Assembly: GCA_021555105.2 (NCBI GenBank)
Contig: CP134604.1
Location: 1,674,001 to 1,738,000 of the forward strand
Reading direction: 5' to 3'
Length of the DNA: 64,000 nucleotides
DNA from: Thalassospiraceae bacterium LMO-JJ14
GTDB taxonomy: Bacteria > Pseudomonadota > Alphaproteobacteria > Rhodospirillales > Casp-alpha2
Shown here: positions 1 to 19,231 of the stretch, one piece after another
How the letters are laid out: every line of letters starts with the position of its first letter
Position numbering within the stretch: position 1 is the stretch's first letter
Made by a program: the position numbers and the translations under genes
Notes under the pieces: model-generated
What the model was told of the DNA's origin: nothing
The model's input: the letters and a program-made list of their open reading frames with translations, nothing else
Database searches by the model: none

Positions 1-1522
1 TTTGTTCTTTTTCCGGCAGCGAATTGACGAAATCCTCGGCCTGGGCCAGGTGAAGGGCACGTTTGGCGGCTGCGAGGTCAATGCTTTCGCGGGGCAGTCC
101 GAGGGCGATATTGGCTGCAATCGTATCGCGCATCAGAAACGGTCCCTGTGGCACGAACCCTACCTTTGCATGCCATGAAGGCATGATGTCTTCGAGCGGG
201 TGCCCGTTGATCAGTATTTGCCCCTGTTGCGGTTTGAGGAAGCCGAGAATGATGTCGGCCAGGGTGCTTTTCCCCGCGCCCGAGGCACCGACGATCCCGA
301 TGGATTCGCCGGCATGTATGTCCAGGGATATGTGATCGAGGATCGTCTGGTTGGTTCGCGGATAGGTGTAGGAGACATCTTCGAGCCGGACCAGGGGCAT
401 GTCGGGCGTGGCCGGCTTCGGCAATGGCGGCGGCGGAACGTCTTTACCCTCCGAAGGTTTGAATATGTTGCCCAGCGAATGGGCTGCATCGTCTTCTAGG
501 TATTCCGCCTTGCCGGTGATGTCGCGGTAAACAATCTCAGCTGCCGGGCCGTTCATCCGCAGCGTTTGTAATGAGGTAAGAATGCGCCCCAGGGATGGCA
601 AAAGGCGAATCAGGACCAGCGCCATCAATCCGAAAAACGCCAAGGCCTGGGACGAGGGAACGGACAAGACGACCGTTGTCGCGATCGCCATCGCGGCCAG
701 TGAAAAAATGATTTCCAAATAGGTGCGCGGCAGCTGGTCGAAAAAAGTCCGGCGAACATTAAGCTTGCCGAGCTCACGATTGAAATGTGTGAAGCGATCG
801 GTCAATCCACTCGCACGACCAAGCACACGTACTTCCTTCAGGGCGCCGAAAATTTGATAAATGCTGGCGTTCGTTTCCCTGGAGAGTTCGATGTAACGGC
901 TTCCTAATTTTGTGACCCGGTCGCGCGCCCAATAATAGAAGGCCGCGCTGACACCGGTGAACGAAATCAATCCGATCAGCAGGATGATCGGATTGATCGC
1001 CGCGAGGCCGAACAAAATAGCCGATACGGTGAATACTTCCGAGGCGATGGTCATTGACGGGGTGATAAAGCCCCGGAATGCGGCTGAGCTGGTTCCTATT
1101 ACATTGGTGACGAGTTCGGAGACGGTTCGGATCAAAAAGAACTCGTAAGGTGCATGGATGTATTTTCTCAGCAGCTTTTCACTGACCAGAAGTTCAGCCG
1201 TAACGATGAATCGCGTCTGCCACCGGACGATAAGAACCATCGCAACATTGCGTAGGATAATCAGGCCGAAGACCAGGAATATAAGCACAAGGATGAATTG
1301 TTCGACCGAACTGACGTTGAGCAGGTTGTACAGAAAAAGAAGATACGGCGTTTCCCGAAAGGATTCCTGCTCCACCATGACGTGAACAAGCGGGAACGCC
1401 ATGGCCATGCCGGCAATTTCAATCAGGTTGGAAATGATCATCAGAACGAACGCTACGGGGATGCGGCGCCGGGTTTTGGTGTCGAGAATTTCGTATAAAT
1501 TCCGCAACCTTTTGATAATCAT
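1..1522 (-). CDS. ABC exporter, fused permease-ATPase (MsbA/PglK type), 3' end outside window
   Basis: The reading frame is open from an ATG at 1522 to the window edge, so at least 507 residues are present and the C-terminus is missing. The first ~330 residues hold hydrophobic transmembrane segments. The ATPase half begins after a proline-rich linker, and its Walker A, GASGAGKST, is encoded near 265-290. The LSGGQ signature and Walker B lie beyond the edge. This is the architecture of lipid-linked oligosaccharide flippases such as MsbA and PglK. The start codon overlaps the stop of the capsule-like gene as ATGA, so it is the last visible gene of the nonulosonate train. A role in flipping or exporting the glycan made here is inferred from context. 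Confidence 0.88.
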   Translation of the reverse strand, partial: MIIKRLRNLYEILDTKTRRRIPVAFVLMIISNLIEIAGMAMAFPLVHVMVEQESFRETPYLLFLYNLLNVSSVEQFILVLIFLVFGLIILRNVAMVLIVRWQTRFIVTAELLVSEKLLRKYIHAPYEFFLIRTVSELVTNVIGTSSAAFRGFITPSMTIASEVFTVSAILFGLAAINPIILLIGLISFTGVSAAFYYWARDRVTKLGSRYIELSRETNASIYQIFGALKEVRVLGRASGLTDRFTHFNRELGKLNVRRTFFDQLPRTYLEIIFSLAAMAIATTVVLSVPSSQALAFFGLMALVLIRLLPSLGRILTSLQTLRMNGPAAEIVYRDITGKAEYLEDDAAHSLGNIFKPSEGKDVPPPPLPKPATPDMPLVRLEDVSYTYPRTNQTILDHISLDIHAGESIGIVGASGAGKSTLADIILGFLKPQQGQILINGHPLEDIMPSWHAKVGFVPQGPFLMRDTIAANIALGLPRESIDLAAAKRALHLAQAEDFVNSLPEKEQ

Positions 1523-3006
1523 GATGCCTGGCCTGTCGTTCTGTTCTCGGATTTGGCCATGTTTGCCAGCCCTGTTTTGTCAATCAACCATTCCATTTGA
1601 TTGCGGTAGGATGAGACAATTTCCGGCGTGACGGTTCTTAGTCCGCCGAAGAAATGATGTGGCAAAACATCAAACGAAGATTCCAGAAGATTCCTTAAGT
1701 AAGCCAAAACAGCTTCATCGCTCGGACCCGGTTCGCTGGCCGCCTTGGTGATCATGGCGGCGATCTCGCCTATATCGTGGCAATGATGGCATCCGGGAAC
1801 AACGGTGCCAAGCGGGGTGGGCCCTAGGAACAGGGCCTTGCGGCCCGCCAGGACCGCCTCCATTCCCGCCGTCCCGGTTACGACCACCGTTAACTGCGCG
1901 CCGTCGATGAGGGTGTGCAGTGGGACATCCGGCGCCACCAGGCGGACCCCCGGGCAGGCGCGCAATTTTCGGTAAAAGCCGCGGGGGCGCCGGCCCAGCA
2001 TCGGTATATGCTCTTTAACGACGATCTCCCATCCGGTGGGAACTGCTTTCGCAAGCGTTCGGATAAGGGCTATCTGATCGGTGTAGTTGGGGGCTGCGAC
2101 GATCGACCCGGCTTCAGGGTCGACTTGAAGCGGAAAAAACACATAAGGCTGCGACGGGGACGGCAGCGCGTCGCACCAGAGCTGGCGCAAGCGGTAAAGT
2201 ATGTGGGCGAAGGACCACCGCCGCAGTTCCCATGTCAGACGGGCGCCAGGGTAGGGGTAGGAAGGAACATCGGGCGGGCGGCGGATGAGGGTCCACCAGG
2301 CCAGGGCTGCGAGGTCGATCAGCGGCGGCAGCGAGAAGGTCACGCGGGTATTGAATGCGGAATAGCCGGGCGGTTGCGGTTTTGCCCTATAGCTTTCAAG
2401 TACGCGGTGGGCTTCGTCGTCATTATCGCTTGCGCCGAATAATGGGCAGGCCCCGGCCGCATCGGAAAAGAACATGAAACGGTGGCCAAAACGGGCCGAG
2501 GCGAACGTCAGGAAAGGAACGGACATTTCCTCTGCCAACAACGCCGCGGCCAGGCTCGCCGCATCTTCGGGTAAGTACGTGAGCACCAGATCGGGCTTCT
2601 CACGCTCGAAAATATCACGAAGCCATTGCAACTGCTTTTGGGCAAAACCCTTTGCTGCGTCTTCCGTGCCGCAGGCCCGGCTGATAGGCGTTTCGGGAAT
2701 GACACCGCCGGTCGCGTGCCGGCTTCCCACATGGCGGTCGCCGCGTATGACACGTTCGACCATCGCTTCGGAAGGCCATTCTGCTGGGCCTGTCGATTGT
2801 GACCCGAGCCAGGCTTGTTCCTGATCCGGCAGGTATTCGATCGCCGAGTAGTGCAGTTCGTTATCGGAGCGGAGCCGGCCCATCACGGTTTGGTCGCGAA
2901 CGACGATGACGCAGACCTCCAGGTGTTCCGTCCGTTCTCCGAGCGCGGACAGAATCATGCGCGGCCATTCGCAAAACTCTACATAGAAGAGCGCCAGAAC
3001 CTTCAT
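1519..3006 (-). CDS. capsule polysaccharide synthesis-like protein (Caps_synth/KpsS-like)
   Basis: The 495-residue protein has a GT-B-like layout. Its C-terminal half carries VFFPLQVDPEA, then VVKEHIPMLGRR, then VVTGTAGMEAVLAGRKALF. This series resembles capsule-synthesis proteins of the KpsS/KpsC and nonulosonate-transferase type, where a KEHP-like segment and a TG-(S/T)-x-x-E-A segment bind the nucleotide sugar. It overlaps both neighbours by four bases (ATGA). A plausible job is transfer of the activated nonulosonic acid, or of another sugar, onto the acceptor, but the substrate cannot be read from sequence. The family assignment rests on motif resemblance only. Confidence 0.65.
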   Translation of the reverse strand: MKVLALFYVEFCEWPRMILSALGERTEHLEVCVIVVRDQTVMGRLRSDNELHYSAIEYLPDQEQAWLGSQSTGPAEWPSEAMVERVIRGDRHVGSRHATGGVIPETPISRACGTEDAAKGFAQKQLQWLRDIFEREKPDLVLTYLPEDAASLAAALLAEEMSVPFLTFASARFGHRFMFFSDAAGACPLFGASDNDDEAHRVLESYRAKPQPPGYSAFNTRVTFSLPPLIDLAALAWWTLIRRPPDVPSYPYPGARLTWELRRWSFAHILYRLRQLWCDALPSPSQPYVFFPLQVDPEAGSIVAAPNYTDQIALIRTLAKAVPTGWEIVVKEHIPMLGRRPRGFYRKLRACPGVRLVAPDVPLHTLIDGAQLTVVVTGTAGMEAVLAGRKALFLGPTPLGTVVPGCHHCHDIGEIAAMITKAASEPGPSDEAVLAYLRNLLESSFDVLPHHFFGGLRTVTPEIVSSYRNQMEWLIDKTGLANMAKSENRTTGQAS

Positions 3007-4331
3007 GCTTTGCCAACCTCATTCCACCGCGAGCGGAGGAAATTCAGGTTATCGAAAACCTTGTGAAAGGCATCCGCCACGTCGCTCAGGTCTTGCTCGG
3101 TCATGCCAGGGCGCATCCATTCATGAATGATCATACTGTTGTCCTGGATGTCCTCGGTTATCGGGCAGGTGCCGGGCGCATAGCTCGGGCGTTCCGCCTC
3201 GGGGATCGTCGTGAATGGAAATCCCGCGCCGCCGATGGCGATCTGTCGTTGGAACAAAGGCATGTAATACAGGGGCTTTATGTAACCTGCACGGATCAAT
3301 GGGCCTTCGCCTTCACGCAATTCAGTCACCGGCAATTCCGCGCGCAGGGCCGCAACCACCGCTTCGCGTGGGACGCCCGCCAGCGCTGCGTCGAACAGCA
3401 GGGCATGAAGGTAATAGGAATGCTCGGTTTCCGCTGGGCACGGCGCCGGTTTCAGGCCCGGCAGGCCTGTCAGCATGGATTCCAGCCTGGTTACGTTGTC
3501 GCGGCGTTCCGAAACCAGCCGTTCTGCCTTCGCCAGTTGCACCCGCCCCAGGGCGGCTTCAATTTCACCAAGGCGGAAATTGAATCCGACCATGTTGGAA
3601 AGGTCGGACACGCCCTTGCCTTCGACCACGGCCTCGGCGTGGTTGCGGATCAACTGCAGACGTTCGGCCAGAACGGGATCGTTGGTTACGACCACGCCGC
3701 CTTCACCCGTGTGGACGTGTTTGTGGTAATTGAGGCTGAAAACCCCGAGATGCCCCAGCGTACCGACCGGTTTGCCGTTCAGTCGTGCGAAAGGGGCCTG
3801 GGCGCAATCTTCGATGACCATCAGATTATGGCGATCGGCGATGTCCATCAGCGCATCCATGTCGGCTGGACACCCGAACAAGTGGACGACGAGGATGGCC
3901 TTGGTGCGCGAGGTGATTGCGGCTTCGACGCTGGCAGGACAGAGCGTGAATCGTTCGCGTTCGATGTCGGCGAAACGCGGTACGGCGCCATAGATCAGCG
4001 GTGCGGTGGCTGAAGCGCACATCGAATAGGGCGATACGATGATTTCGTCGCCGGGTTCGAGCCCACACGCCCCAACCGCCGCCTGTAGACCCGATGTGGC
4101 CGAATTGACAGAAACGGCGAAGCGCGCTTCGTAAGCCGTGGCCCATTCTTCTTCGAACGCCTGGACTTCAGGTCCGCCATAGAAGTCCGGGTGCCAGCTT
4201 CCAAGGAAGCGGGAAAGTATACCGCTTGTCAGCACCCGCTCGGCGGCAAGCCGTTCTTCCTCGCCATAGGTTGCATGGCGAGGGAACGGCTGAGAACGCG
4301 TTGGTGAGCCGCCGAATAGGGCCAAGGTCAT
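3003..4331 (-). CDS. DegT/DnrJ/EryC1/StrS-family sugar aminotransferase
   Basis: This 442-residue PLP-dependent enzyme has the family landmarks: a cofactor-stacking region near 75-85 (SVNSATSGLQAA), VIEDCAQA near 172-179 whose Asp binds the pyridine nitrogen, and NYHKHVHTGEGG with catalytic Lys204. Such enzymes transaminate keto-sugars bound to a nucleotide. It is distinct from pseC at 17-18 kb, so the cluster has two sugar aminotransferases. It would therefore add an amino group to a second sugar, or act as a sensory or dehydratase-like relative. It is translationally coupled on both sides. The length is slightly above the usual 370-400 residues. Confidence 0.85.
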   Translation of the reverse strand: MTLALFGGSPTRSQPFPRHATYGEEERLAAERVLTSGILSRFLGSWHPDFYGGPEVQAFEEEWATAYEARFAVSVNSATSGLQAAVGACGLEPGDEIIVSPYSMCASATAPLIYGAVPRFADIERERFTLCPASVEAAITSRTKAILVVHLFGCPADMDALMDIADRHNLMVIEDCAQAPFARLNGKPVGTLGHLGVFSLNYHKHVHTGEGGVVVTNDPVLAERLQLIRNHAEAVVEGKGVSDLSNMVGFNFRLGEIEAALGRVQLAKAERLVSERRDNVTRLESMLTGLPGLKPAPCPAETEHSYYLHALLFDAALAGVPREAVVAALRAELPVTELREGEGPLIRAGYIKPLYYMPLFQRQIAIGGAGFPFTTIPEAERPSYAPGTCPITEDIQDNSMIIHEWMRPGMTEQDLSDVADAFHKVFDNLNFLRSRWNEVGKA

Positions 4332-5647
4332 TTCTCAAACATCCACCAGGTCATGTTGCCGATTCCTGTTGCCGGCTTCCAGAAGAAGCCATAGTCGACA
4401 AGCCGTAAAGAGGGAAATTGCTCCATCCAACAGCGGCCGTAATCATTGCGAAACAACAGGCCTTCCTCGCCCTGGTAGGGAAGTTCCTCCGCTTCGGGGG
4501 CAAAATATTCACAGCAAAGAATGAAGCGTTTGGCCACGCGATGTATTTCCACCATGGCATCGTCCAGATCGGACGGTGGAACGTGAATGAGTACCCCGCA
4601 AGTGAACGCCAGATCGACGGCTTCGTCGGCGAGCGGGAGGGTTGTCGCCGAGCCGTCATGGATTTGCCCTGCCGGCAGTACGCCATCCGCGACGAGAATT
4701 TTTCTTGCCTCGGCACTGGGCTCAACCGCCGTCAGTGTCGCGGTTGTTAGCGACTTGAGAGCGCGTAAGTTCAGACCGATATTGGAACCGACTTCCAAGA
4801 TCGAGTTCAGCTCGGGCACGCAAGATAGAATCCTTTGCCACATATGTTGACGGTCCTGGATTTTTTGCGGTGTTGCCGAGTTACGTGCGATGTAATTGTT
4901 GCCAAAATTGCCACGCCAAACGTTGAGCAGATCTTGCTGCTTCTCCGCTTGGCCTTGCCGTTGGCTGAAGTAAAATTTCATCAGCTCCATGTCTTCCGGC
5001 TCGTCAAGATCGACGGCGCGTTCGGCCGGCATGTAATGACCTTTCAAGGTCGGGCCGTAGAGTGTCTGGTGAATGCGAAAGGACGGCACCCAAAGGGCGT
5101 AGCTGGTTCCGTTGCTGAACCAGAGCGGACCGATTTCCTGCGACTGGCGGCTAACTATATCCGGAAACATCGGTTCAAGGCGGCCATCCGGTGTCACTTG
5201 TAGCGCTTGATGCGCCTGACGGTCGGCCTGGGAAACGCCCATCGAGAACTCGCAGACGCCGGGCTCGATGAGTCCGACTGTTTCCTTGATATCATCGGCC
5301 GTGCGCAGTGCGGCTGTGGCATAGAGGCAGCAGAGGACTTCCCAGTCGTCTCTCCCGGCGGCCTTTTCCTGATCGAGGAAATCCAACAACATCGGCGCCG
5401 TCGCCACTTCGTCGGTGGCCATTTCAGGGCGCCGTTGCACCGGCACGGCGCCATATGCGGCGGCAATTTCCAGAATAGCCGGATCATCGGATGAAACGGC
5501 CACCCGTTCGAAGAGCCCCGAATCAAGAGCGGCCTGAATGGTGTAGGAGATAATCGGGTGACCGAAAAACTCTATCCGGTTCTTGCCTGGAAACCGCTTG
5601 GACCCTCCTCTGGCGGGAATGACCGCGACGCTTTTGAAACGTGACAT
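4328..5647 (-). CDS. pseF: fusion: pseudaminic acid cytidylyltransferase (PseF) + SAM methyltransferase
   Basis: Residues 1-228 are a CMP-sugar synthetase: VAVIPARGGSKRFPGKN is the nucleotide-binding loop, and YMPAERAVDLDEPEDM near 205-220 is typical of PseF/NeuA. It would load CTP onto the nonulosonic acid. Residues ~240-439 form a second domain with WRGNFGNNYIARN at 244-256, the entry motif of the methylase associated with pseudaminic acid loci, and ILEVGSNIGLNLRAL (283-297) as SAM motif I. The two are usually separate genes; here they are one continuous frame. It overlaps the aminotransferase by ATGA. The upstream spacer of 95 bases makes it the only loosely joined member of this half of the operon. 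Fusion of activation and methylation suggests the sugar is methylated at or near CMP activation. Confidence 0.88.
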   Translation of the reverse strand: MSRFKSVAVIPARGGSKRFPGKNRIEFFGHPIISYTIQAALDSGLFERVAVSSDDPAILEIAAAYGAVPVQRRPEMATDEVATAPMLLDFLDQEKAAGRDDWEVLCCLYATAALRTADDIKETVGLIEPGVCEFSMGVSQADRQAHQALQVTPDGRLEPMFPDIVSRQSQEIGPLWFSNGTSYALWVPSFRIHQTLYGPTLKGHYMPAERAVDLDEPEDMELMKFYFSQRQGQAEKQQDLLNVWRGNFGNNYIARNSATPQKIQDRQHMWQRILSCVPELNSILEVGSNIGLNLRALKSLTTATLTAVEPSAEARKILVADGVLPAGQIHDGSATTLPLADEAVDLAFTCGVLIHVPPSDLDDAMVEIHRVAKRFILCCEYFAPEAEELPYQGEEGLLFRNDYGRCWMEQFPSLRLVDYGFFWKPATGIGNMTWWMFEK

Positions 5648-5742
5648 CTGAGTGACCCTGTACCCTTTCGGGAATTATAGATGCACTTTTCTCTTTAGCA
5701 GTCGACCGCTCCGTGAGGCGCAGGGCCGAATAAATTGCAATT
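5648..5742 (-). promoter_or_regulatory. 95-base spacer with TATAAT, possible internal promoter
   Basis: This is one of only two spacers near 100 bases inside an otherwise overlapping gene train. On the minus strand it contains TATAAT (5674-5679) about 27 bases before the pseF-fusion start. I see no convincing -35 hexamer at 16-18 bases upstream. It might give separate transcription of the last four genes. Weak evidence. Confidence 0.2.
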
Positions 5743-6783
5743 TTAGAGAGAAAGCGCGTGGGTTAATAGTACTAACAAACGTTGCTGGCTACCGGCAACC
5801 TGCAACTCGACGTTTCGGGTTTTATTTGAACCCGGAAAACCGGCGATGGCTGCGGGGAGAGCGGCTGCATTGGTGAGCGGTTTCAGGATTTCAGCGGCCG
5901 GATTAAGAATGTAATTGCGCTCAGGCTGCAGCGCCAGGAGCGGAATGCCGGCGGCAGCGGCTTCCAGCAACAGCCCCGAGGACATACCGATCACACCGTC
6001 GGCGACAGCGAGCAAGTCGTTGGTATCGGCTTCGCTGAGCTCGACCTCCACCGGTCCATTGGCGGCGTGTTCCTTAATCCAGGCGGCCCAGGTATCGGAA
6101 GGCTCAATAGGATGACGCTTTATCACCAGGCGCTGTGGCCGGTTCAGGGAACGCAGACCGGTCAGCACCGATTCGGCCACCGAAAACTGGTCAAAGCCGA
6201 TAGGGCGATGTGGGTTGATCACTTCCCGAAATGCTTCCGATGCAAACAAAAGCATAGGCGGCGATCCGGCAGTCCTGCCTGCACGGCGGACGTGGAGCGT
6301 TTCGGCAACATTCTCCAAATGCGGCTGTCCGACGACTTCCAAGCGGGCGGAGCACCATGATTCCGTCTGGATATCGGCTCGGCTCTGTTCATCTACCAGA
6401 GCGAGGATATCGGGTTGCGCATTCAACTCCTGTCCCCGCTCAAATCGCATTTTCAAATTATACGACGCATCCAGAACCGCGACCGAAGGAATGCCCCTTT
6501 TTTTCGCGAGATTCCAAAGATCGTGTTCAAAGGTATCAAAGCGGCTGGTGCCGGTGACCAGCAGATCCGGGGCGATCGTGTCGAAAGCGCTTTCGAGGGA
6601 AGCGGTGTCCGGCTGTTGTGTCAGGCTGTCCGCGTCGGGCCAGACTTGGGTCCCGTAACCATGTGCCCATCTGGTAACCTGCCAGCCGGCTTCCATCAAC
6701 GGTGTGACCATTGCCTGCAGAACGAGGACGCCGCCAACATCATTTCCGGCCAAAAGGATTCTGTTGGCTTGGCGATGCGTCAT
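5743..6783 (-). CDS. glycosyltransferase-like (GT-B) protein of unknown specificity
   Basis: The chosen ATG at 6783 makes an ATGA overlap with the oxidoreductase upstream and gives 346 residues. A start 11 codons earlier is possible but would lie inside that gene. The N-terminal half has ILLAGNDVGGVLVL and a Rossmann-like region with DLLVTGTSRFDTFEHDLW. The C-terminal half has LVIKRHPIEPSDTWAAW and then LLAVADGVIGMSSGLLLEA. This Lys-x-His-Pro plus 'AD..I.MSSG.LLEA' arrangement is shared by surface-polysaccharide GT-B enzymes and PseG/NeuC-like folds. No signal peptide is visible. Donor and acceptor are unknown. Confidence 0.6.
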   Translation of the reverse strand: MTHRQANRILLAGNDVGGVLVLQAMVTPLMEAGWQVTRWAHGYGTQVWPDADSLTQQPDTASLESAFDTIAPDLLVTGTSRFDTFEHDLWNLAKKRGIPSVAVLDASYNLKMRFERGQELNAQPDILALVDEQSRADIQTESWCSARLEVVGQPHLENVAETLHVRRAGRTAGSPPMLLFASEAFREVINPHRPIGFDQFSVAESVLTGLRSLNRPQRLVIKRHPIEPSDTWAAWIKEHAANGPVEVELSEADTNDLLAVADGVIGMSSGLLLEAAAAGIPLLALQPERNYILNPAAEILKPLTNAAALPAAIAGFPGSNKTRNVELQVAGSQQRLLVLLTHALSL

Positions 6784-7754
6784 GTCGCTTCTGCGAGAGC
6801 GACGATTTCCTGACATAACCGGGTCGCTACCAGCGCCGTCTGGGCGGTACTCGGTAAAGGGGCCCCTTCGTCTAGGGTGCGGAAAAGGCCGTCCACGACC
6901 TGAGCCATGAAATGATCATCCTTCTCGGTGTGCCATTCGGCATTGCGAGGCGTGCGTACCAAAGGAAAGCGGGGATCATTTCCCGCCGGGCGCCAGCAGA
7001 TGCGGGTGCCAAGATCCTGGATTTCCGCAATGCCGCCTTCGAACGCAAGCGACATTTCGATGGTTACATAGTTGCGGCGATCCAGGCTCGATAAAAAGAC
7101 CATCGCGTCGCCCGCCTTGAGTACGGCATCTGCGCGCGGATCGGCGGGGTCTCCACCGGAATCGCGGATTTTTGCCCAGACCGGTTGGTAGATGCCGGGT
7201 GTCAGAAAACCCAGCAGGTCCAATAGATGGCTGCCGTTATTGAACAGGCCGCCGCCATAGCTCAGGTATGCCGATTGAAGCGCCCCTGCCTGTTCAAGAC
7301 CCTCACGCAGCCGATTGATTTCTCGACCCCACCGGCGGAAATAGTTTACCGCCAGCGGCACCCCGGCGCGCCTGCAGGCGTCCATTGCTGATTGGCCCGC
7401 GCTAAAATCTACATCAAGTGGTTTTTCAGCGAAGATCAGTCGCGGTTGCACGCTCAACAAACGCTGTATCAATTCGGCACGACCGGCAGAAGGGGTGCAT
7501 ACGCTGATGACGTCGCAGCTGGGCGAGGTCGCAAGCCAGTCCTCAACCGAAGCGAACGACGATGGAATGGACCAGCGTTCAGCGAACCGCCGGCGCACTT
7601 CTGGTTCCGGATCAATGCAGGCACTATTCCGAAAGGCCGGATGGGCATGAAAAGCACCGGCATGGGAAAGCGGGGGCTGGCAGCTCAGATCGCGATCGTC
7701 GTCATAGCCGCCGGCGATCTGTCCGCACCCAACGATTACAGTATCGTAGCTCAT
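6780..7754 (-). CDS. Gfo/Idh/MocA-family NAD(P)-dependent oxidoreductase
   Basis: The 324-residue protein starts with a Rossmann fold (VIVGCGQIAGGYDDD) and has FAEKPLDVD near residue 110, the EKP motif whose Lys is catalytic in this family. GSHLLDLLGFL near 175-185 supplies the His of the active site. Such enzymes oxidise or reduce sugar hydroxyls or C3-keto groups, often on nucleotide sugars. Start and stop overlap both neighbours as ATGA. In this cluster it probably alters the oxidation state of a sugar ring carbon or side chain, but the substrate is not predictable. Confidence 0.82.
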   Translation of the reverse strand: MSYDTVIVGCGQIAGGYDDDRDLSCQPPLSHAGAFHAHPAFRNSACIDPEPEVRRRFAERWSIPSSFASVEDWLATSPSCDVISVCTPSAGRAELIQRLLSVQPRLIFAEKPLDVDFSAGQSAMDACRRAGVPLAVNYFRRWGREINRLREGLEQAGALQSAYLSYGGGLFNNGSHLLDLLGFLTPGIYQPVWAKIRDSGGDPADPRADAVLKAGDAMVFLSSLDRRNYVTIEMSLAFEGGIAEIQDLGTRICWRPAGNDPRFPLVRTPRNAEWHTEKDDHFMAQVVDGLFRTLDEGAPLPSTAQTALVATRLCQEIVALAEAT

Positions 7755-10388: not shown

Positions 10389-10391
10389 GGT

Positions 10392-11108: not shown

Positions 11109-11114
11109 TGCTCT

Positions 11115-11789: not shown

Positions 11790-11801
11790 GAACAATGCCC
11801 C

Positions 11802-12485
11802 TCAGGTGGAAGAGAGTAAGCCGAGGCTATCGGGGCCCTGCATGAATAGCAAGTCGATAATCGACATGTAAGGCTCGAACCCCGGGTAGATTTGCCCGTA
11901 TACGGGATGAGTGTAGTCATGAAATTGTACTTTTATACCAGCGGCTTGGAACGCGTTCTGATCCAGGTAATCGCGGCCGAGCGGGCCGGAGAGATAGACC
12001 GTCGCTCCAACGGATTGACACAACTCCAGGACGAGTTCGCTCTTGGTTGCGTTCGGCTTCATCTGTGAGCTATAGCGTAGCGGTGTGGTAATGCCCAAGA
12101 CCTGCATCAGCTTGGTGTTGATCGCGTCCATCATCGGGGCGAGACGCTCCCACGGGTGTTGATAGATGGGCTCAAGCCATGCCGCATGCTGATCGAAGAA
12201 AGGAGCCTTGGCGTAGGCTTGGCAGATCCCGGCCCAGTGCTTGCGCCGCCAGTTGTCGTTGGCGATCTCCAGTGAATCGATGGCCAGGGAGCCAAAGCGT
12301 CCACCTGTCCGAACAGGCACCGTCAACCATGTGGAACCTTGGGCCGTTCTGATGCGGTTGCGATTGACGAAGCTGTTTTTCTCAAACTGCACATGGTCGA
12401 GCACAACGTGCAATTCGGAGAGACGAATGCGATCAAAATAACCGAGCCATGGCAGGTATGCCGGCTGATTAATGGAAACAATCAC
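11802..12485 (-). CDS. WbqC-like family protein
   Basis: The N-terminus, IVSINQPAYLPWLGYFDRI, followed by LDHVQFEKNSFVNRNRI, is diagnostic of the WbqC family found in O-antigen and other surface polysaccharide loci. The family's biochemical role is unsettled; proposals include acyl or amino-acid transfer. The start is GTG at 12485, three bases after the radical SAM stop, and an out-of-frame ATG just before it reads directly into TGA. The 227-residue length is typical. Next to deacetylases and formyltransferases it may add or help add an N-acyl group, but this is inference. Confidence 0.82.
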   Translation of the reverse strand: MIVSINQPAYLPWLGYFDRIRLSELHVVLDHVQFEKNSFVNRNRIRTAQGSTWLTVPVRTGGRFGSLAIDSLEIANDNWRRKHWAGICQAYAKAPFFDQHAAWLEPIYQHPWERLAPMMDAINTKLMQVLGITTPLRYSSQMKPNATKSELVLELCQSVGATVYLSGPLGRDYLDQNAFQAAGIKVQFHDYTHPVYGQIYPGFEPYMSIIDLLFMQGPDSLGLLSST

Positions 12486-12488
12486 ATG

Positions 12489-13826
12489 TTAAACCCGGAC
12501 GTTCGATAGCTCGGCGGAGCTCCGATTGTGCTTCATGACCTGAGCAGAAATCAGCGCTTCGACATCGTCGGTCGGGAATTCGCTGAAATCACGGCGGCGC
12601 CATTTGTCGCGAGCCATGTTGACATACGGCTCGATCAGCGCCCAATCCTCGCCCGGGAAGTTTTTGCGCGTGTTGTCGAGACGGAAGTTCAGCCCGGCAA
12701 TCCAGTAAATCGGAGATAGCATCAGGCGCAGCTTGCCCCAACCCTCCATCGTGGTCGGCGGATTGAATGCCGGAAAACCGTCGATACCGGCAACGGCTTC
12801 ATCATACATAGGGCTGCCCGGATACGGGGCGAACTGGTAGACCGAGATGCGGGCCGCCGGATCGGTCTGCTTGATCCAATCGATCAGATCATACGTGTCC
12901 TGGCGCATTTCATCGGTTTCACGCGGCATGCCGGTGATGAAGCTGTACATCACCGAAATGCCAGACCCCGCCACGTTGCGGGCCGCCTCGCGGATGGTTT
13001 TGACGCCATGTCCCTTGCGGATGACCTTGCGCAGGAAGTAGTCATTGCCGGACTCGCAACCTATCTCAAGCGAGAAGCAGTTCGATTCCACCAAGGCATC
13101 TACCATTTCCGGGGACAGATACGGGCTGCGGATATTGCCATCCCATTGTACGTTAAGCTCGCGCATAATCCTGCCGATTTGGCGCACCCGTTCAACGCGA
13201 TCCAGGCGTTGGCTTTTTCCATTTTCGTCTTTCCAGGCCCCAAAGCCGATGTTGGGGTCGGAGAATGAAATTTCATCAAAGCCGACGTCGTTATGGATGA
13301 TCTTGAGTTCGCGGTCGAGTTCTCCAAGATCCTTGGGGGACCAAGGTGAGCTGAGCGCGCAGAACGTGCAGGGGAACGGGCAGCCACGCGAGGTAAAGTA
13401 CTGTACATCGCCACGGGCAAACATATGCTTTGTGCGTTCATTGTATGGGAAAAGGTGCTCGCCATAGACCCTGTCAGGGTAGACGCGGTCGACAAAAGGC
13501 TCTGCCAGGACCTGGTCCGGCAAGATACGGGCATGGTGCCCACCGACACCGGTGGTGACCGATGGTTTGATCCGTTTGGCCAGTTTCAGGATTTCCGCAG
13601 CGCGTCCGACCTGATAGCCGGTAAAGGCGGATACCGCCACTTCTTCGGCATCTGCGATCATTTCCTCGAGCATTTCCGGCGGGTCGAAGCGGTCATCGAA
13701 ATAACCAACCTGCAGCCCTTGGCTTTCGTACAAAGCACCAGGATAAAGGATCGAAAGCGGTGTTAGCTTCACCGGAGAATCCTGCGTAGGGCGAGGATAA
13801 ACTAGCAGTTTATCTAATTTTGCCAT
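12489..13826 (-). CDS. radical SAM protein with B12-binding-like N-terminal domain
   Basis: An ATG at 13826 with a strong GAGGAGAG Shine-Dalgarno gives 445 residues; an ATG 15 codons upstream lacks such a site. Residues ~1-130 resemble the Rossmann-like cobalamin-binding domain (VAVSAFTGYQVGRAAEIL and GVGGHHARILPDQVL), but the DxHxxG His motif is absent. The radical SAM core begins with YFTSRGCPFPCTFCALSS (CX3CX2C) binding the 4Fe-4S cluster. FSLEIGCESGNDYFLRKVIRKG and FITGMPRETDE are later core motifs. Proteins of this class often methylate unactivated carbons or rearrange sugars. Its place between pseI and the N-acyl genes suggests a glycan modification. Confidence 0.85.
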   Translation of the reverse strand: MAKLDKLLVYPRPTQDSPVKLTPLSILYPGALYESQGLQVGYFDDRFDPPEMLEEMIADAEEVAVSAFTGYQVGRAAEILKLAKRIKPSVTTGVGGHHARILPDQVLAEPFVDRVYPDRVYGEHLFPYNERTKHMFARGDVQYFTSRGCPFPCTFCALSSPWSPKDLGELDRELKIIHNDVGFDEISFSDPNIGFGAWKDENGKSQRLDRVERVRQIGRIMRELNVQWDGNIRSPYLSPEMVDALVESNCFSLEIGCESGNDYFLRKVIRKGHGVKTIREAARNVAGSGISVMYSFITGMPRETDEMRQDTYDLIDWIKQTDPAARISVYQFAPYPGSPMYDEAVAGIDGFPAFNPPTTMEGWGKLRLMLSPIYWIAGLNFRLDNTRKNFPGEDWALIEPYVNMARDKWRRRDFSEFPTDDVEALISAQVMKHNRSSAELSNVRV

Positions 13827-13933
13827 GTTTAAGTCACTCTCCTCATCATTACGTACCTTTTCATGGACCATGGTTGTGATGTCAAGTGCAAAAACCCATT
13901 AAAACAGTATGTTATTATCCAAAAGAACGGTGT

Positions 13934-14998
13934 TCATGCGCTAAAATCGGCAAGGCCGATCAAGCTGCCGGCGGCAATCGGGCGAGCGGCGACACAATCG
14001 AGTACCTGATCCAGCAGGGCTGGCGGAAGCCCGTCGCCGGGACGGCGCAGGCCGGTGTTGCTGGGCGTCAGGCGTTCTCCCTGCGCGATGTCCCGAAGGG
14101 CGACGATGCTGCGGCGGCAGATGCTGCGCATGGCAAGTTCCTTTGCCGATGCCCTAACCACCGGGCTGCCCATGATGGTTCTGGCCCGAAGAATTCCATC
14201 CACCCAACCTTTCAATTCCTCCGGATTGTCCGAGAACCAGTGGTCCGGTCCAGGCAGGTCGTGGCTGAGGGTGAAGTGCTTCTCGAACACCGAAGCGCCC
14301 ATGGAACTGGCGATGGACGACGCCAACGGTCCCTGCGTGTGGTCCGAAAAGCCGATGGGCAGCCCTGGAAAGGCGGCCTTCAAGGTCGACAGACGGGAAA
14401 GGTTCACTTCCTCCGGAGGTGTCGGGTACTGCGAAGTGCACAGAAGCAACACTGTCGGCGTTCCCTCGAACGTACCAAGGGCCTCAAGCGCATTGTGAAC
14501 ATCCGACAGATCGGCCATGCCACAGGACACGATCATCGGCAATCCAGCAGAGGCGAAGTCACGCAACTGGGGCAGGTTGGTGAAGTCGTCCGATCCGACC
14601 TTGATCGCCTGCAGACCCAACGGCAGCAGCATGTCTAGATCAGATCGGTTTTGCGGCGTCGACAGGAACATGATGTCCGTCTTCAGGCAATGTTCGCGCA
14701 GGCTTTGCCATTGCTCATACGTAAACTCATGGCGCTTGAACATTTCCAGTTGGGGCTCGGTGATCTCCTTGCCCTGGCTGGTGTATGTGTAGGTGGCTTC
14801 GGGGGAACTGACGAATTCCTCCGCCTTGAACGTCTGGAACTTGATGGCACTGACGTCGGCTTTCTTGGCCACTTCGACCATCTCGAACGCCCGGTCCAGG
14901 TCTCCGCAATGGTTGATGCCGGCCTCTGAAATGATGAATGGCGGGGAATCTGCCCCGACGCTATAGGGGCCGATGTCGAAGCGAGAGATGATACTCAT
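13934..14998 (-). CDS. pseI: pseudaminic acid synthase (PseI/NeuB family)
   Basis: The enzyme condenses a 6-carbon 2,4-diamino sugar with phosphoenolpyruvate to give the 9-carbon acid. The TIM barrel has FIISEAGINHCGDLDRA, SAIKFQTFKAEEF, FLSTPQ and GFSDHTQGPLASSIA, then FEKHFTLSHDLPGPDHWFS, all NeuB-family landmarks with metal-binding His. The last ~60 residues (SIVALRDIAQGERLTP...) are the antifreeze-like SAF domain. The ATG at 14998 is preceded by GAGGAGA at proper spacing, preferred over a TTG two codons upstream. PseI rather than NeuB/LegI is favoured by the adjacent pseBCG genes. Length 354 is typical. Confidence 0.92.
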   Translation of the reverse strand: MSIISRFDIGPYSVGADSPPFIISEAGINHCGDLDRAFEMVEVAKKADVSAIKFQTFKAEEFVSSPEATYTYTSQGKEITEPQLEMFKRHEFTYEQWQSLREHCLKTDIMFLSTPQNRSDLDMLLPLGLQAIKVGSDDFTNLPQLRDFASAGLPMIVSCGMADLSDVHNALEALGTFEGTPTVLLLCTSQYPTPPEEVNLSRLSTLKAAFPGLPIGFSDHTQGPLASSIASSMGASVFEKHFTLSHDLPGPDHWFSDNPEELKGWVDGILRARTIMGSPVVRASAKELAMRSICRRSIVALRDIAQGERLTPSNTGLRRPGDGLPPALLDQVLDCVAARPIAAGSLIGLADFSA

Positions 14999-15014
14999 GG
15001 TCAAAGTCTCCTCA

Positions 15015-15197
15015 TTAAACGCGCGTGAGTACGGGAGGAATGATGATATTACCCTGTGCCTTCAGGGTGCCGCTATGAGTTGCACCGGTCTCGACCAGCG
15101 CCTTATCGAAGTCGCGGCTGCAGCCTTTGTTCAGGAAACAGGAATTAACGACAATCGCCGCCCACGGGCAGCAATGCGGAATGATCATCTCAGGCAT
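15015..15197 (-). CDS. small ORF between pseG and pseI, unknown function
   Basis: A 60-codon frame starts at an ATG that overlaps the pseG stop by eight bases and ends 16 bases before the pseI start, filling the space between them almost exactly. The start is placed like the translationally coupled starts elsewhere in this operon. The peptide contains four Cys (two in a CC pair) and ends in a hydrophobic NIIIPPVL segment. I recognise no family. It may be a genuine small protein, a remnant of a larger gene, or chance. Codon statistics and conservation could not be tested here. Confidence 0.4.
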   Translation of the reverse strand: MPEMIIPHCCPWAAIVVNSCFLNKGCSRDFDKALVETGATHSGTLKAQGNIIIPPVLTRV

Positions 15198-16236
15198 GAT
15201 CTTGATCTTTCCACTCTGAAGAAAGCATCACGGCAGCGGTACGGCCGGCGCCGGCACCATCGCAGATTTCCGAGGCGTGCCGGGCCATATCGGCCAAAGA
15301 CGAAGGCGCGCCGCTCAAATGCACAACGGCGTCGGCAATCCGATGGTGGGTATCGGCGTTCAGAGGCGCCTCGATCCATGCCGCGCCGGCTTGGGCCAGG
15401 CCGGTTGCGATATCCACCTGATTGTCTGCTGCTACAATAAGTACCGAAGGTAACGCAAGGGTACACCGCTCCCAAGACATCGAGCCTGCAGCGCCAACGG
15501 CGAGGTCGGCCCGCACCATCAGTTCTGACATGTCCGGCGGATCGCGATGAATCACGACCGACGGTAGGATCGAAAGCCGCGCAGCAAGCTCAGTCGCTTC
15601 CGGCCAATGCGATCCGATGACCACATCAAGGGCCACATTTGGAAGGCGCTCGGCGATCGCACGTGCGGTGCGTTCGGTCATGCCATCAGGGTCGCTGCCG
15701 CCGAAACTCACCAGTATCCGCTGCAGTTCATTATGCTTCTTTACCAATGCCCGGGATCGTTTTCTTGCAAAGGCCGGGCGCAGCAGGGCGTAGGCGGTGC
15801 CGGCAAGTACCTTGCTGTCCGATGGCACCCATGGCGCATAGTCGGCGGCCTGCCTGTCGCGTGTTTGATCGAGCAGCAGGTCGCAGGCATGGGATCGGCA
15901 GGGTACGTCGTCAATGGCCATGATCCGCTTCGTCCAAGGGCGGCAGGCGTTATGGTAATCGGCCCCCAGGCCATAATGATCAACGACCAGCCAATCGATT
16001 GTCTCGCCCACGGCCTCGGCCAGGGTGGCGGGATCCTTGCCGTCGGCCAAAGGCAGAATGTCATGTTCCGATGTTGCCAGGGAAGGAACAGCGTCCAGGG
16101 CTTCGCGCGTTACCGCAAAAACGCACCGCCCCCCTCGTTCACGCAGTGCCGTTGCCAAGGCAAGGCACCTGATCACGTGCCCGCTCCCGACACCGAATGA
16201 AGCGTCAGGGCGAAAGAAGATGGAAGCGCTGGCCAC
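15190..16236 (-). CDS. pseG: UDP-2,4-diacetamido-2,4,6-trideoxy-beta-L-altropyranose hydrolase (PseG)
   Basis: PseG removes UDP from the altropyranose precursor of pseudaminic acid. The N-terminal motif FRPDASFGVGSGHVIRCL includes the catalytic His (residue 20 here). WLVVDHYGLGADYH, ILVSFGGSDPDG near 180 and GAAGSMSWERCTLALPS complete the GT-B-like fold typical of PseG. I selected the GTG at 16236, with a GAGGGG site upstream, giving 348 residues; longer frames lack support. It overlaps the preceding cytidylyltransferase gene by 32 bases. Together with PseB, PseC and PseI it defines the pseudaminic branch rather than the legionaminic branch. Confidence 0.9.
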   Translation of the reverse strand: MASASIFFRPDASFGVGSGHVIRCLALATALRERGGRCVFAVTREALDAVPSLATSEHDILPLADGKDPATLAEAVGETIDWLVVDHYGLGADYHNACRPWTKRIMAIDDVPCRSHACDLLLDQTRDRQAADYAPWVPSDSKVLAGTAYALLRPAFARKRSRALVKKHNELQRILVSFGGSDPDGMTERTARAIAERLPNVALDVVIGSHWPEATELAARLSILPSVVIHRDPPDMSELMVRADLAVGAAGSMSWERCTLALPSVLIVAADNQVDIATGLAQAGAAWIEAPLNADTHHRIADAVVHLSGAPSSLADMARHASEICDGAGAGRTAAVMLSSEWKDQDHA

Positions 16237-17014
16237 GTTCGGTATACCCCTCAATCTCTGGCTCGTTGTGTTCAAAGGCGTTGCGGACAACACGGTGCGA
16301 GTCCTGATGGGTGTTCAGGCCGCTGATATCAGTCGGCTGGCGCACAGCCTGTTCCACTGCGCGCCAGGGAAAGCCCGCGGCGCCCTCGGGAAGGCGGGTG
16401 AACAGGGTCTGAAAAAACCGCAGGTCATCTGCTGTATCCAGGGTCCATCTGTGGTCCGTTGCGTCGCCGCCCGGGCCCAGCAGATTGACCCTGGAAACCC
16501 CATCGCGGCTGCGAAGATCCAGGGTGACATGCTCACGGGTGTCTGGGTCGTGGGCGGTGCGCCAGGATTCTTCAAGATCGACCATACGCATGGCTTCCAC
16601 ATCCAGTCCGTGCGGCCAGGAGGGAGGCATGTTGTTGGTCGCATAAGCCGCGCCGGTATCCTGCAACAAGCGCAACACCGCGCCGCACACTTCGGGATCG
16701 ATTGCCGGGCAATCGGCCGTCACCCGAAGTACGATGTCGGCGGCCTGGGTACGAGCGGCGCCGACCATCCGGTCAAGCACATCGGCCTCGGAACCGCGGA
16801 AGGCGAAGGCGCCGCAATTTTCCGCTTCCGCGGCAACAAGCGCCCCGTTTTCATCATCCGTTGTGGCGCATACTACAGCCGCGATACCGGGTATCGCCAG
16901 GCAGCGCTCCAGAACCCGGCCAAGCACGCTGCGCCCGTTCAGGTCCATCAGCACCTTGCCGGGCAGACGGGTCGAGCCCAACCGCGCCTGCACAACCGCG
17001 ACGGCCCGGCTCAT
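16205..17014 (-). CDS. SpsF-like cytidylyltransferase-fold protein
   Basis: VAVVQARLGSTRLPGKVL is the nucleotide-binding loop of the CMP-KDO synthetase/SpsF fold, and VLRVTADCPAIDPEVC carries the metal-binding Asp region. At 269 residues it matches SpsF proteins of nonulosonic acid loci, which often sit between pseC and pseG as here. It is not the same as the pseF fusion at 4.3-5.6 kb, so two cytidylyltransferase-type proteins are encoded. Its true reaction is not established from sequence. It may activate a second sugar. ATGA overlap with pseC couples translation. Confidence 0.85.
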   Translation of the reverse strand: MSRAVAVVQARLGSTRLPGKVLMDLNGRSVLGRVLERCLAIPGIAAVVCATTDDENGALVAAEAENCGAFAFRGSEADVLDRMVGAARTQAADIVLRVTADCPAIDPEVCGAVLRLLQDTGAAYATNNMPPSWPHGLDVEAMRMVDLEESWRTAHDPDTREHVTLDLRSRDGVSRVNLLGPGGDATDHRWTLDTADDLRFFQTLFTRLPEGAAGFPWRAVEQAVRQPTDISGLNTHQDSHRVVRNAFEHNEPEIEGYTERGQRFHLLSP

Positions 17015-18213
17015 GATTTCAACGCGCCGATCAAGATATCGACGACCCGTTCCACGTCGCTGTCCTCGAGGTCCGAATAAAAAGGCAGACTTAGCACGCG
17101 TGCATGATAGGCATCGGCCCCCGGCAACGGGATTTCGCCGTATCGACGACGATAGTAGGGCTGACGATGAACCGGCAGATAATGAACCTGAGTGCCGATG
17201 CCCGCCTCGGCCAATTGTCGCATCAAGTCGTCACGCGAAAGGCCCAGCCGGTCGAATTCGATCAACACCGGATAGAGGTGCAGTACGGGACGACAATCTG
17301 CAACGCGGGTGACCGGACGCACCATATTGGCGTGCGGGGCAAGCAAACGGTCATACAAATCCATCAAGGCACGGCGCCGCGCGGCGAAACGTGGAAGCTT
17401 TGAAAGCTGGCTGGTGCCGAGGGCGCATTGCAGATCGCAGGCCCGATAATTGTAGCCAGGCGCTTGCATCTCGTAATACCAGGGGTGGCGTTTGCCTTCG
17501 TCGTCAAAGGCCTCGTCGGTCTGCAACAACTTGTCCGGATCGCGTTCCATGCCATGGTTGCGAAGTAAACGCAGACGTTCGCCCAGCGCCGGATCGCGGG
17601 TCGTAATTGCCCCGCCTTCACCCATGGCCACGGTCTTGACCGGATGAAACGAAAAACAAGACATACGTGCATGGTGGCACGCCCCAACCGACATGCCGTC
17701 AGCATACTCGGTGCCCAGGGAATGGCAGGCGTCTTCAATGATGTCCAGGCCATGGACTGACGCCACGGAAGATATGTCGACGGGATCGGCGCACTGCCCG
17801 TTCAGATGCACCGGCAGGGCCACACGAAGCCGCAAATCCTTGTCGGTACGGGCAATCGCCTGTTCCAACTCTTTGGCCCCCATCAGGCCTGTATTCGGGT
17901 CGACATCGGCGAACACGACTTCGGCACCGGTAAAACGAATGACATTCGCAGTGGCGAGGAAGGTCACCGCAGGCACGACAGCCGCATCCCCAGGTCCCAG
18001 ATCGAGGGCCATCGTGGCCAGGTGCAACGCGGCCGTTCCATTCGCGCAGACTATCGCTTCTGGCGCCTTTACTGCCTGCGCCAGCGCTCGTTCGAACGCC
18101 TCCACGGCTGGGCCTGTGGTTAGGAAATCCCCTTCCAGGACCTGGCGAACAGCGGCGATATCGTCCTCGTCGATGCTTTGTCGCCCATAGGGTAGGAACG
18201 GACGTTCGCCCAC
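17011..18213 (-). CDS. pseC: UDP-4-amino-4,6-dideoxy-N-acetyl-beta-L-altrosamine transaminase (PseC)
   Basis: The 400-residue PLP enzyme has YGRQSIDEDDIAAV at its start, a hallmark of PseC, then VCANGTAALHLATMAL as the phosphate-binding region, DIIEDACHSLGTEY with the pyridine-binding Asp, and SCFSFHPVKTVAMGEGG with catalytic Lys193. It converts the 4-keto product of PseB to the 4-amino sugar using glutamate. The start codon is GTG. It lies 19 bases after pseB and overlaps the next gene by ATGA. Direct adjacency to pseB supports the assignment over other DegT aminotransferases. Confidence 0.92.
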   Translation of the reverse strand: MGERPFLPYGRQSIDEDDIAAVRQVLEGDFLTTGPAVEAFERALAQAVKAPEAIVCANGTAALHLATMALDLGPGDAAVVPAVTFLATANVIRFTGAEVVFADVDPNTGLMGAKELEQAIARTDKDLRLRVALPVHLNGQCADPVDISSVASVHGLDIIEDACHSLGTEYADGMSVGACHHARMSCFSFHPVKTVAMGEGGAITTRDPALGERLRLLRNHGMERDPDKLLQTDEAFDDEGKRHPWYYEMQAPGYNYRACDLQCALGTSQLSKLPRFAARRRALMDLYDRLLAPHANMVRPVTRVADCRPVLHLYPVLIEFDRLGLSRDDLMRQLAEAGIGTQVHYLPVHRQPYYRRRYGEIPLPGADAYHARVLSLPFYSDLEDSDVERVVDILIGALKS

Positions 18214-18232
18214 GATAAACTGTTTCCCTTAA

Positions 18233-19231
18233 TCAGGAACCGGAGAGGATATTGCGGATATGATCCTCGTCCAACCATTCAGTGTTGCCGTTGCTGGTAT
18301 AATTGAATCCCTCCGGTACCGGCTGCGATCCTGGCGGGTCCTGCAAGACGTGGTCCCAGAAAGCGAAAGAGGGTTTGATGATATAGTGACTGCCGCAGTC
18401 CAGCACGTTCTTGGAGTCATCGGATGAGATCATGATCTCGTGCAGCTTTTCGCCGGGACGGATACCCACGATCTTGTGCGGCATGTCGGGTGCTACGGCA
18501 TGGGCCAGGTCGACGATGTTCATGCTTGGAATTTTCGGTACGAACACCTCGCCGCCGGTCATCTGTCCCAGCATGTCGATGACGAAATCAACGCCCTGCT
18601 GCAGAGATATCCAGAAGCGAGTCATGCGCGGGTCTGTAATTGGCAGCGCCTCAGCGCCCTCGTCAATTAGCTGTTTGAAGTAGGGAATGATGCTGCCGCG
18701 TGAGCCAATAACATTGCCATATCGTACCACGGAAAATCGGGTGCCGCGCCCACCCGCCAAATTGTTCGCCGCAGCAAACAGCTTGTCCGAGGCCAGTTTG
18801 GTGGCGCCATACAGGTTGATGGGGTTGCAAGCCTTGTCGGTAGAAAGTGCGATGACTTTTTTGACGTCGGCCGACAGGGCTGCCTGGATAACATTTTGCG
18901 CCCCTATGATATTCGTCAGGATGCATTCGCTGGGATTGTATTCCGCCGCGGGCACATGTTTAAGAGCCGCCGCGTGAATGACGTAGTCGACCTCACGCAT
19001 GGCGAAGTTCAGACGGTTGGCGTCTCGTACGTCGCCAATGAAATAACGCATCTCGGGACGGCCCCTGAATTCGATGCGGTTGGACATTTCGTATTGTTTG
19101 AGTTCATCGCGTGAAAAGACGATTAAGCGATTGACCGAATACCGCTCGAGAATCGTTTTAACAAACACTTGGCCAAACGACCCTGTCCCGCCAACAACAA
19201 GAACAGAAGAACCGTCAAAATTCACAGGCAT
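18233..19231 (-). CDS. pseB: UDP-N-acetylglucosamine 4,6-dehydratase, inverting (PseB)
   Basis: The extended SDR enzyme begins pseudaminic acid synthesis from UDP-GlcNAc, giving the 4-keto-6-deoxy L-arabino sugar. GGTGSFGQ (14-21) binds NADP, and the catalytic residues are seen as STDKACNPINLYGATK with Asp132, Lys133 and Tyr141 in the same positions as described for Helicobacter PseB/FlaA1. RPGEKLHEIMIS near the C-terminus is also typical. At 332 residues it is full length. It is the first gene of the minus-strand train, so its promoter should lie in the region beyond 19232. Confidence 0.94.
   Translation of the reverse strand: MPVNFDGSSVLVVGGTGSFGQVFVKTILERYSVNRLIVFSRDELKQYEMSNRIEFRGRPEMRYFIGDVRDANRLNFAMREVDYVIHAAALKHVPAAEYNPSECILTNIIGAQNVIQAALSADVKKVIALSTDKACNPINLYGATKLASDKLFAAANNLAGGRGTRFSVVRYGNVIGSRGSIIPYFKQLIDEGAEALPITDPRMTRFWISLQQGVDFVIDMLGQMTGGEVFVPKIPSMNIVDLAHAVAPDMPHKIVGIRPGEKLHEIMISSDDSKNVLDCGSHYIIKPSFAFWDHVLQDPPGSQPVPEGFNYTSNGNTEWLDEDHIRNILSGS

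Follow-up and report, generated by a model that had tools for sequence, protein, structure and literature searches.

Nonulosonic acids are known in which C5 bears a formyl, lactyl, hydroxybutyryl, acetimidoyl or other group. In the pseudaminic acid (Pse) route the 2-N-acetyl group of UDP-N-acetylglucosamine (UDP-GlcNAc) ends as the C5 N-acetyl group and PseC creates the C4 (later C7) amine, and PseJ is a formyltransferase that acts in the place of PseH; we know of no explanation of how the C5 N-acetyl group of this route comes to be replaced. Here, 19 tightly packed minus-strand genes (positions 2-19231, junctions of -89 to +185 bp and mostly within +/-10 bp) are analysed in Thalassospiraceae bacterium LMO-JJ14, whose genome is a single contig of 3.89 Mb; the window is a 64,000-nucleotide stretch of it (CP134604.1, positions 1,674,001 to 1,738,000). 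This operon probably makes one or more pseudaminic-type nonulosonates for a surface polysaccharide, the N-acyl groups of which would be tailored by modules of a PIG-L deacetylase and a partner enzyme.

Several parts of such a system are already known. N-formyl nonulosonates occur as a 7-formamido nonulosonate in Pseudoalteromonas (PMC3210612) and as 5-N-formyl-legionaminic acid, demonstrated in Halorubrum sp. PV6, where the nonulosonate genes adjoin a candidate N-formyltransferase (PMC6137143); the latter cluster differs from the present one in serving a legionaminic pathway, and the paper's text mentions no deacetylase or PIG-L. 'Deacetylase' genes lie among the pse genes of Aeromonas flagellin glycosylation islands of groups IE and IF, the searched part of that text naming no mechanism, formyltransferase or PIG-L (PMC7874193). 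Successions of a deacetylase and a cysteine ligase are described for BshC, which follows the PIG-L enzyme BshB, and for MshC, which follows MshB; according to the same review, BshC activity had not been demonstrated in vitro (PMC4360819).

The gene set named in an earlier sequence-only reading of the window is in place, close-set and all on the minus strand: pse genes, two PIG-L proteins (PIGL1 and PIGL2), two Formyl_trans_N proteins (FT1 and FT2, FT denoting the formyltransferase fold), WbqC and a B12-binding radical SAM protein (rSAM). As in the PseB-C-H-G-I-F pathway, the operon encodes a NeuB-family synthase, cytidylyltransferases and PseB, PseC and PseG proteins that each exceed their NCBIfam equivalog cut-off (Table 1), which confirms the earlier calls for these three. 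It departs from that pathway in its extra deacetylases and acylators, in a second NeuB (NeuB2, left of the window) and in the lack of PseH, for which the best profile match genome-wide reached 24 bits against a cut-off of 93. The synthase NeuB1, read earlier as PseI, does belong to the NeuB/PseI family but lies below both equivalog cut-offs (NeuB_NnaB 330 bits; PseI 225 bits against 340), and NeuB2 does not reach that of PseI either (260 bits against 340). The supposed pseF proved KdsB/SpsF-like, and the better match to PseF, also below the cut-off, is a fused protein elsewhere in the operon (Table 1). The PseJ route (PDB 6ci2/6ci4/6ci5/6edk) likewise has an FT-fold gene where PseH is missing, but the PIG-L and WbqC proteins of the window have no counterpart in its simple form. 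BshB/BshC and MshB/MshC each pair a PIG-L-family deacetylase with a HUP-fold ligase that acylates the freed sugar amine, the candidate counterparts here being PIG-L and WbqC, whose predicted fold matches BshC; WbqC, however, lacks BshC's long coiled-coil part, sequence similarity between the two is undetectable, and the sugar here is of the nonulosonate type rather than glucosamine (GlcN)-malate or GlcN-inositol.

Conserved partners of the PIG-L deacetylases

Both PIG-L proteins match PF02585 (86 and 93 bits, cut-off 28) with intact metal-site motifs (HPDDE, xDH), and both match the BshB1 profile below its cut-off; family calls throughout are by Pfam and NCBIfam profiles with curated cut-offs. 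The comparison of gene neighbourhoods proposed in the sequence-only reading gave each PIG-L its own conserved partner, and WbqC-PIGL1 and PIGL2-FT1 are accordingly read as putative recurrent modules of a deacetylase and a re-acylating enzyme, with FT2 standing alone. PIGL1 homologues (45-52% identity) were found in pse loci L056, L068, L115 and L038 (L numbers denote compared loci), and WbqC and PIG-L occur together in L038, L068 and L095, in the last of which both lie beyond the initial 20 kb and were found on extending the locus. The Mariluticola plasmid operon (L038) has the order pseB-pseC-pseF-PIGL-pseG-neuB-FT-WbqC, with no PseH annotated. Among 84,980 species genomes, scanned with a single-protein query that detects close relatives only, FT1 has two, in L035 (73%) and L036 (65%), and in both a PIGL2 orthologue lies directly upstream (57% and 45%, respectively); in L035, NeuB, GNAT, HAD and NUDIX homologues follow the pair.

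FT1 and rSAM orthologues are rare: beyond the window, no close one was found for either protein when 385 genomes of the class were searched, nor for FT1 in 199 of the order (FT1 matches were mostly tRNA-formyltransferase-like), and an alignment search of the viral contigs with FT1 also gave no match. Most of the relatives recovered with FT1 and NeuB as queries are alphaproteobacterial. The sequence-only reading knew of no described system with this exact set, but PIG-L with FT recurs in pse/NeuB loci of other alphaproteobacteria and of viral contigs. PIG-L, FT or WbqC was present in 0 of 20 random 20-kb control loci, so their co-occurrence with the locus is not due to chance. Viral WbqC genes are found close to PIG-L, in several cases immediately next to it and often together with NeuB, and contig L188 retains the NeuB-rSAM-WbqC order (46%, 54% and 40% identity).

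A survey of 80 viral NeuB loci was made with profiles built in this analysis, on metagenomic contigs that may include host fragments. A gene was counted as N-acylating if it encoded a WbqC, FT, GNAT or hexapeptide acyltransferase and lay no more than 5 kb from NeuB, and the p-values account for kinship only through clustering of NeuB at 70% identity. PIG-L is present in 16 of these loci, all 16 with FT and/or WbqC (WbqC with PIG-L, p=1.6e-5; FT with PIG-L, p=1e-3). At least two acylators were counted in 15/16 of the PIG-L loci and in 1/64 of the others (p=4e-14), or in 10/11 and 1/45 after clustering (p=3e-9); the rule also holds when the WbqC loci are excluded (p=7e-9) and when hexapeptide acyltransferases are sought with a generic detector (p=1e-10), neither of these two values being redundancy-reduced. 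Gene orders include NeuB-FT-PIGL-FT, NeuB-FT-PIGL-GNAT, GNAT-PIGL-FT, GNAT-WbqC-PIGL and FT-WbqC-PIGL, and are read as providing one acylator for the free amine and one for the amine that PIG-L would expose. The operon in the window, with two PIG-Ls, three acylators and a further FT (FT3) nearby, fits one extra acylator per PIG-L. Furthermore, NeuB1 groups with the NeuBs of the WbqC and PIG-L pse loci (L038, L068, L095), and its closest relatives carry WbqC and PIG-L (p=2e-7), a trend not seen for NeuB2 (p=0.41). This suggests that it is the NeuB1 product that carries the modification made by WbqC, which may precede the synthase step or be sensed by the synthase.

Some viral loci stand out individually. 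L218, L227 and L236 carry PseB-PseC-NeuB-FT-PIGL-FT, the exact set expected for di-N-formyl pseudaminic acid, and formyl exchange as such is supported in other systems by NeuB-FT-PIGL-FT loci of this kind. In L188 the relative of the otherwise rare rSAM (54%) lies between NeuB and WbqC at 7350-8681, and downstream genes look terminase- and portal-like by eye. Stand-alone PIG-L/WbqC neighbours occur on viral contigs without nonulosonate genes (L171 787-2156, L175 4980-6986, L178 4385-5675 and L264 4324-5738), near replication, ParB-like or glycosyltransferase genes; L264 is Vibrio phage vB_VpS_PG28, in which an annotated BshB1-like deacetylase is directly followed by a WbqC relative. These pairs perhaps modify a host glycan or a DNA base by the same deacetylate-and-ligate chemistry. 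Among the pse loci, L063 (3405-5179) has PIG-L and no recognised acyltransferase, and an ATP-grasp-like gene (by eye) between PseG and PIG-L is possibly a third type of re-acylating partner.

Formyltransferase-fold proteins and WbqC

The N-x-H...D triad of formyltransferases is complete in FT2, whereas FT1 has Gly102 in place of the catalytic asparagine (Asn) and FT3 also lacks the Asn. FT1 matches PDB 6ci2/6ci4, titled formyltransferase PseJ, only remotely (E 2e-6), compared with E 8e-51 for the FT gene of pse locus L060; true PseJ-type homologues are present in L060 and L080. FT2 is not a PseJ match; a homologue of it (~52%) adjoins NeuB/PseC in L065. Because of this NeuB-side relative and its full motif, FT2 is the best candidate for a PseH substitute acting on the free amine, with FT1 the candidate partner of PIGL2. 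Viral FTs that lack the Asn adjoin PIG-L in 7/7 cases against 4/14 for those that bear it, which are mostly PseJ-type (p=0.003), and Asn-less FTs lie beside PIG-L in bacterial loci L059 and L073 too; PseJ-type FTs retain the Asn and are found with or without PIG-L. The correlation is not absolute, as the Asn-less FT3 clade occupies the PseH slot in L045 without an adjacent PIG-L. The FT-fold genes were also considered as tRNA formyltransferases and rejected, being shorter than fmt and far under the fmt cut-off.

Meanwhile, the AlphaFold2 (AF2) model of WbqC has a predicted local distance difference test (pLDDT) score of 87, and its best PDB match is BshC (4wbd; Z 14.2, 216/227 residues, root-mean-square deviation 3.0), followed by class I lysyl-tRNA synthetase (Z 11.7), glutamyl-tRNA synthetase and other members of the HUP superfamily. 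WbqC is thus predicted to have a HUP/class I aminoacyl-tRNA synthetase-like fold resembling BshC, and may be an ATP-dependent ligase that adds a non-formyl acyl group to a sugar. The WbqC sequence gave no meaningful match among PDB sequences and the literature search found no usable account of WbqC function. Pairing with PIG-L and the BshC-like fold agree in pointing to a reaction in which a sugar amine is deacetylated and a carboxylate then ligated to it.

A candidate mechanism and its alternatives

From the computed gene content, the absence of PseH, the conservation of the pairs, the rule of one PIG-L to two acylators and the predicted WbqC fold, we infer the substrates, acyl groups and order of steps as follows. 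PseB and PseC would yield a UDP-sugar whose C2 (the future C5) carries N-acetyl and whose C4 (the future C7) carries a free amine, and with PseH missing a formyltransferase, most likely FT2, would acylate that amine. The C5 acetyl would not be directly changeable; PIG-L would remove it and a dedicated partner would re-acylate, i.e. WbqC after PIGL1, probably as an amino-acid or other carboxylate ligase dependent on ATP, and FT1 after PIGL2. As PIG-L/partner pairs, NeuB genes and cytidylyltransferases each number two, the cluster would probably either yield two nonulosonates that differ in their acyl groups or use one of the pairs on a further N-acetyl sugar within the repeat unit. N-acyl exchange on nonulosonates by a deacetylase and its partner is, as a general mechanism, well supported by these comparisons of sequence, and to that extent the deacetylate-then-reacylate logic of the sequence-only reading, formyl-type enzymes included, is borne out.

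Tentatively, we propose that WbqC is a BshC-like ATP-dependent ligase, putting an amino acid or another carboxylic acyl group on the sugar amine freed by PIG-L, and that nonulosonate synthesis in both bacteria and phages draws on interchangeable N-acyl-exchange cassettes, either PIG-L with WbqC or PIG-L with an Asn-less FT. Each extra acylator would have its own PIG-L, and the C5/C7 acyl pattern would be readable from gene order. If true, the pairing of PIG-L with a dedicated re-acylating partner would explain how the C5 acetyl is replaced, give a function to the WbqC family, uncharacterised so far, hint at what formyltransferase-like proteins lacking the catalytic Asn might do and make surface-sugar acyl patterns predictable from genomes, phage genomes included. 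To judge from the literature searched, four points are new: the pairing into modules, the rule for counting acylators, the association of Asn-less FTs with PIG-L and the function proposed for WbqC. No paper found there brings PIG-L together with pseudaminic acid, or 'PIG-L deacetylase' together with the term nonulosonic.

A number of results weigh against the proposal. The catalytic Asn is missing from FT1, whose structure model was poor (pLDDT 58) and was not used. Foldseek with the WbqC model gave no match at E<=0.001, and hhalign of WbqC against BshC families, with a BshC profile from three sequences annotated bshC and retrieved with a short consensus as bait only, gave a probability of 0.1, the same level as the negative controls. 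Because this profile comparison was negative, the likeness is taken at the level of fold only and WbqC is not classed as BshC, and the Z of 14.2 could reflect membership of the HUP fold alone. The two-acylator rule is weaker in bacterial pse loci (p=0.008), probably in part because the GNAT profile misses many PseHs, and in L056 and L063 PIG-L is present with no acylator detected. The operon's three acylators exceed the two amines per sugar. Since NeuB1 and the SpsF-like enzyme lie below the PseI and PseF cut-offs, the end sugar may differ from canonical pseudaminic acid, and since the pairs of L171, L175 and L178 lack nonulosonate genes, the substrate of a pair is not always a nonulosonate.

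Both PIG-Ls and both FTs could instead act on one pseudaminic acid to give its 5,7-di-N-formyl form, with WbqC and rSAM doing something else, which we regard as decidedly improbable. The PIG-L and FT genes adjoin, 7-N-formyl and 5-N-formyl nonulosonates are natural (PMC3210612, PMC6137143), and the NeuB-FT-PIGL-FT loci would fit di-formyl exchange, albeit in other systems. The sequence-only reading had likewise matched two deacetylases and two formyltransferases to two acetyl groups, a count that does not survive: as PseC leaves the C4/C7 amine free, formyl at C7 needs no deacetylase, only the C5 acetyl would have to be removed and one deacetylase is enough; WbqC tracks PIG-L and NeuB1 in bacteria and viruses, so one PIG-L belongs to WbqC; and FT1 is without one catalytic residue.

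It is also unlikely, less strongly so, that the PIG-L pairs act on another polysaccharide sugar, such as an N-acetylhexosamine (HexNAc) or a 2,4-diamino sugar, with FT2 alone concerned with the nonulosonate. The operon lies in a large polysaccharide cluster, the viral pairs L171, L175 and L178 lack NeuB, and in L036 PIGL2-FT1 lies on a 12.9-kb contig from which nonulosonate genes are absent, but that contig is short. Where PIG-L is present NeuB tends to have a second acylator nearby, similarity to NeuB1 in sequence goes with the presence of WbqC and PIG-L, and the gene order kept in L188 also argues for a link to the nonulosonate. That these are unrelated tailoring genes which have gathered in a variable locus for a surface polysaccharide and do not form functional pairs is very improbable: such loci are gene-rich mosaics, and the order does differ among L038, L059, L068, L073 and the window, yet no control locus has these genes, and the counting rule and the conservation of the pairs across bacteria and viruses come with very low p-values.

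Gene content and surroundings

Table 1. Genes of the operon, listed from its upstream end, with the profile evidence for each
Gene or product	Position	Strand	Evidence and remarks
pseB, UDP-GlcNAc 4,6-dehydratase (inverting)	18233..19231	-	TIGR03589 519 bits, above cut-off 408
pseC, aminotransferase giving UDP-4-amino-4,6-dideoxy-AltNAc, 4-amine free	17011..18213	-	TIGR03588 475 bits, above cut-off 424
SpsF/KdsB-like cytidylyltransferase	16205..17014	-	PF02348; PseF model 19 bits only
pseG, UDP-sugar hydrolase	15190..16293	-	TIGR03590 264 bits, above cut-off 154
NeuB1, nonulosonate synthase	13934..15004	-	PF03102; subclade accompanying WbqC and PIG-L
B12-binding radical SAM protein	12489..13871	-	PF04055 and PF02310; CPFPCTFC motif
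WbqC	11802..12485	-	PF08889 257 bits, above cut-off 21
PIGL1, PIG-L/LmbE-type N-deacetylase	11115..11795	-	PF02585; AHPDDE and DLNIDH motifs
PIGL2, PIG-L/LmbE-type N-deacetylase	10392..11108	-	PF02585
FT1, formyltransferase-fold protein	9723..10388	-	PF00551; catalytic Asn replaced by Gly102
FT2, formyltransferase-fold protein	9110..9730	-	PF00551; complete N-x-H...D motif
HAD phosphatase	8475..9113	-	PF13419; L035 homologue also after PIGL2-FT1-NeuB
NUDIX-like hydrolase	7751..8482	-	Variant Nudix box by eye, no Pfam match; homologue in L035
Gfo/Idh/MocA oxidoreductase	6780..7754	-	PF01408
GT-B/2-epimerase-like protein	5743..6816	-	Weak PF02350
PseF-like cytidylyltransferase fused to pseudaminic-acid-associated methylase	4328..5647	-	TIGR03584 162 bits, below cut-off 206; TIGR03587 150 bits, above cut-off 112
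Second DegT/PseC-like aminotransferase	3003..4331	-	PF01041; TIGR03588 208 bits, below cut-off
Capsule-synthesis-type glycosyltransferase	1519..3006	-	PF05159
ABC exporter, incomplete at window edge	2..1522	-	PF00005, PF00664

The true start of pseG is probably downstream of that listed, as its open reading frame overlaps the preceding gene by 89 bp. The second aminotransferase and the Gfo/Idh protein were considered as a possible route to an 8-amino sugar of the kind found in Flexibacter (PMC3210612). To the left of the window (L003) the cluster extends into a second NeuB, FT3, asparagine synthases and polysaccharide genes, and NeuB2 and the adjoining FT3 lie side by side at 10759-12491 of L003, ~8 kb from the window edge, which suggests a second nonulosonate. 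The region looks like a surface-polysaccharide locus, and no flagellin was noticed in the stretches of the locus that were read. Elsewhere in the window, positions 28900-54000 hold, by eye, genes of MttB-like methyltransferase, corrinoid-protein, methyltetrahydrofolate and sarcosine/betaine type, and look like a methylated-amine catabolism region.

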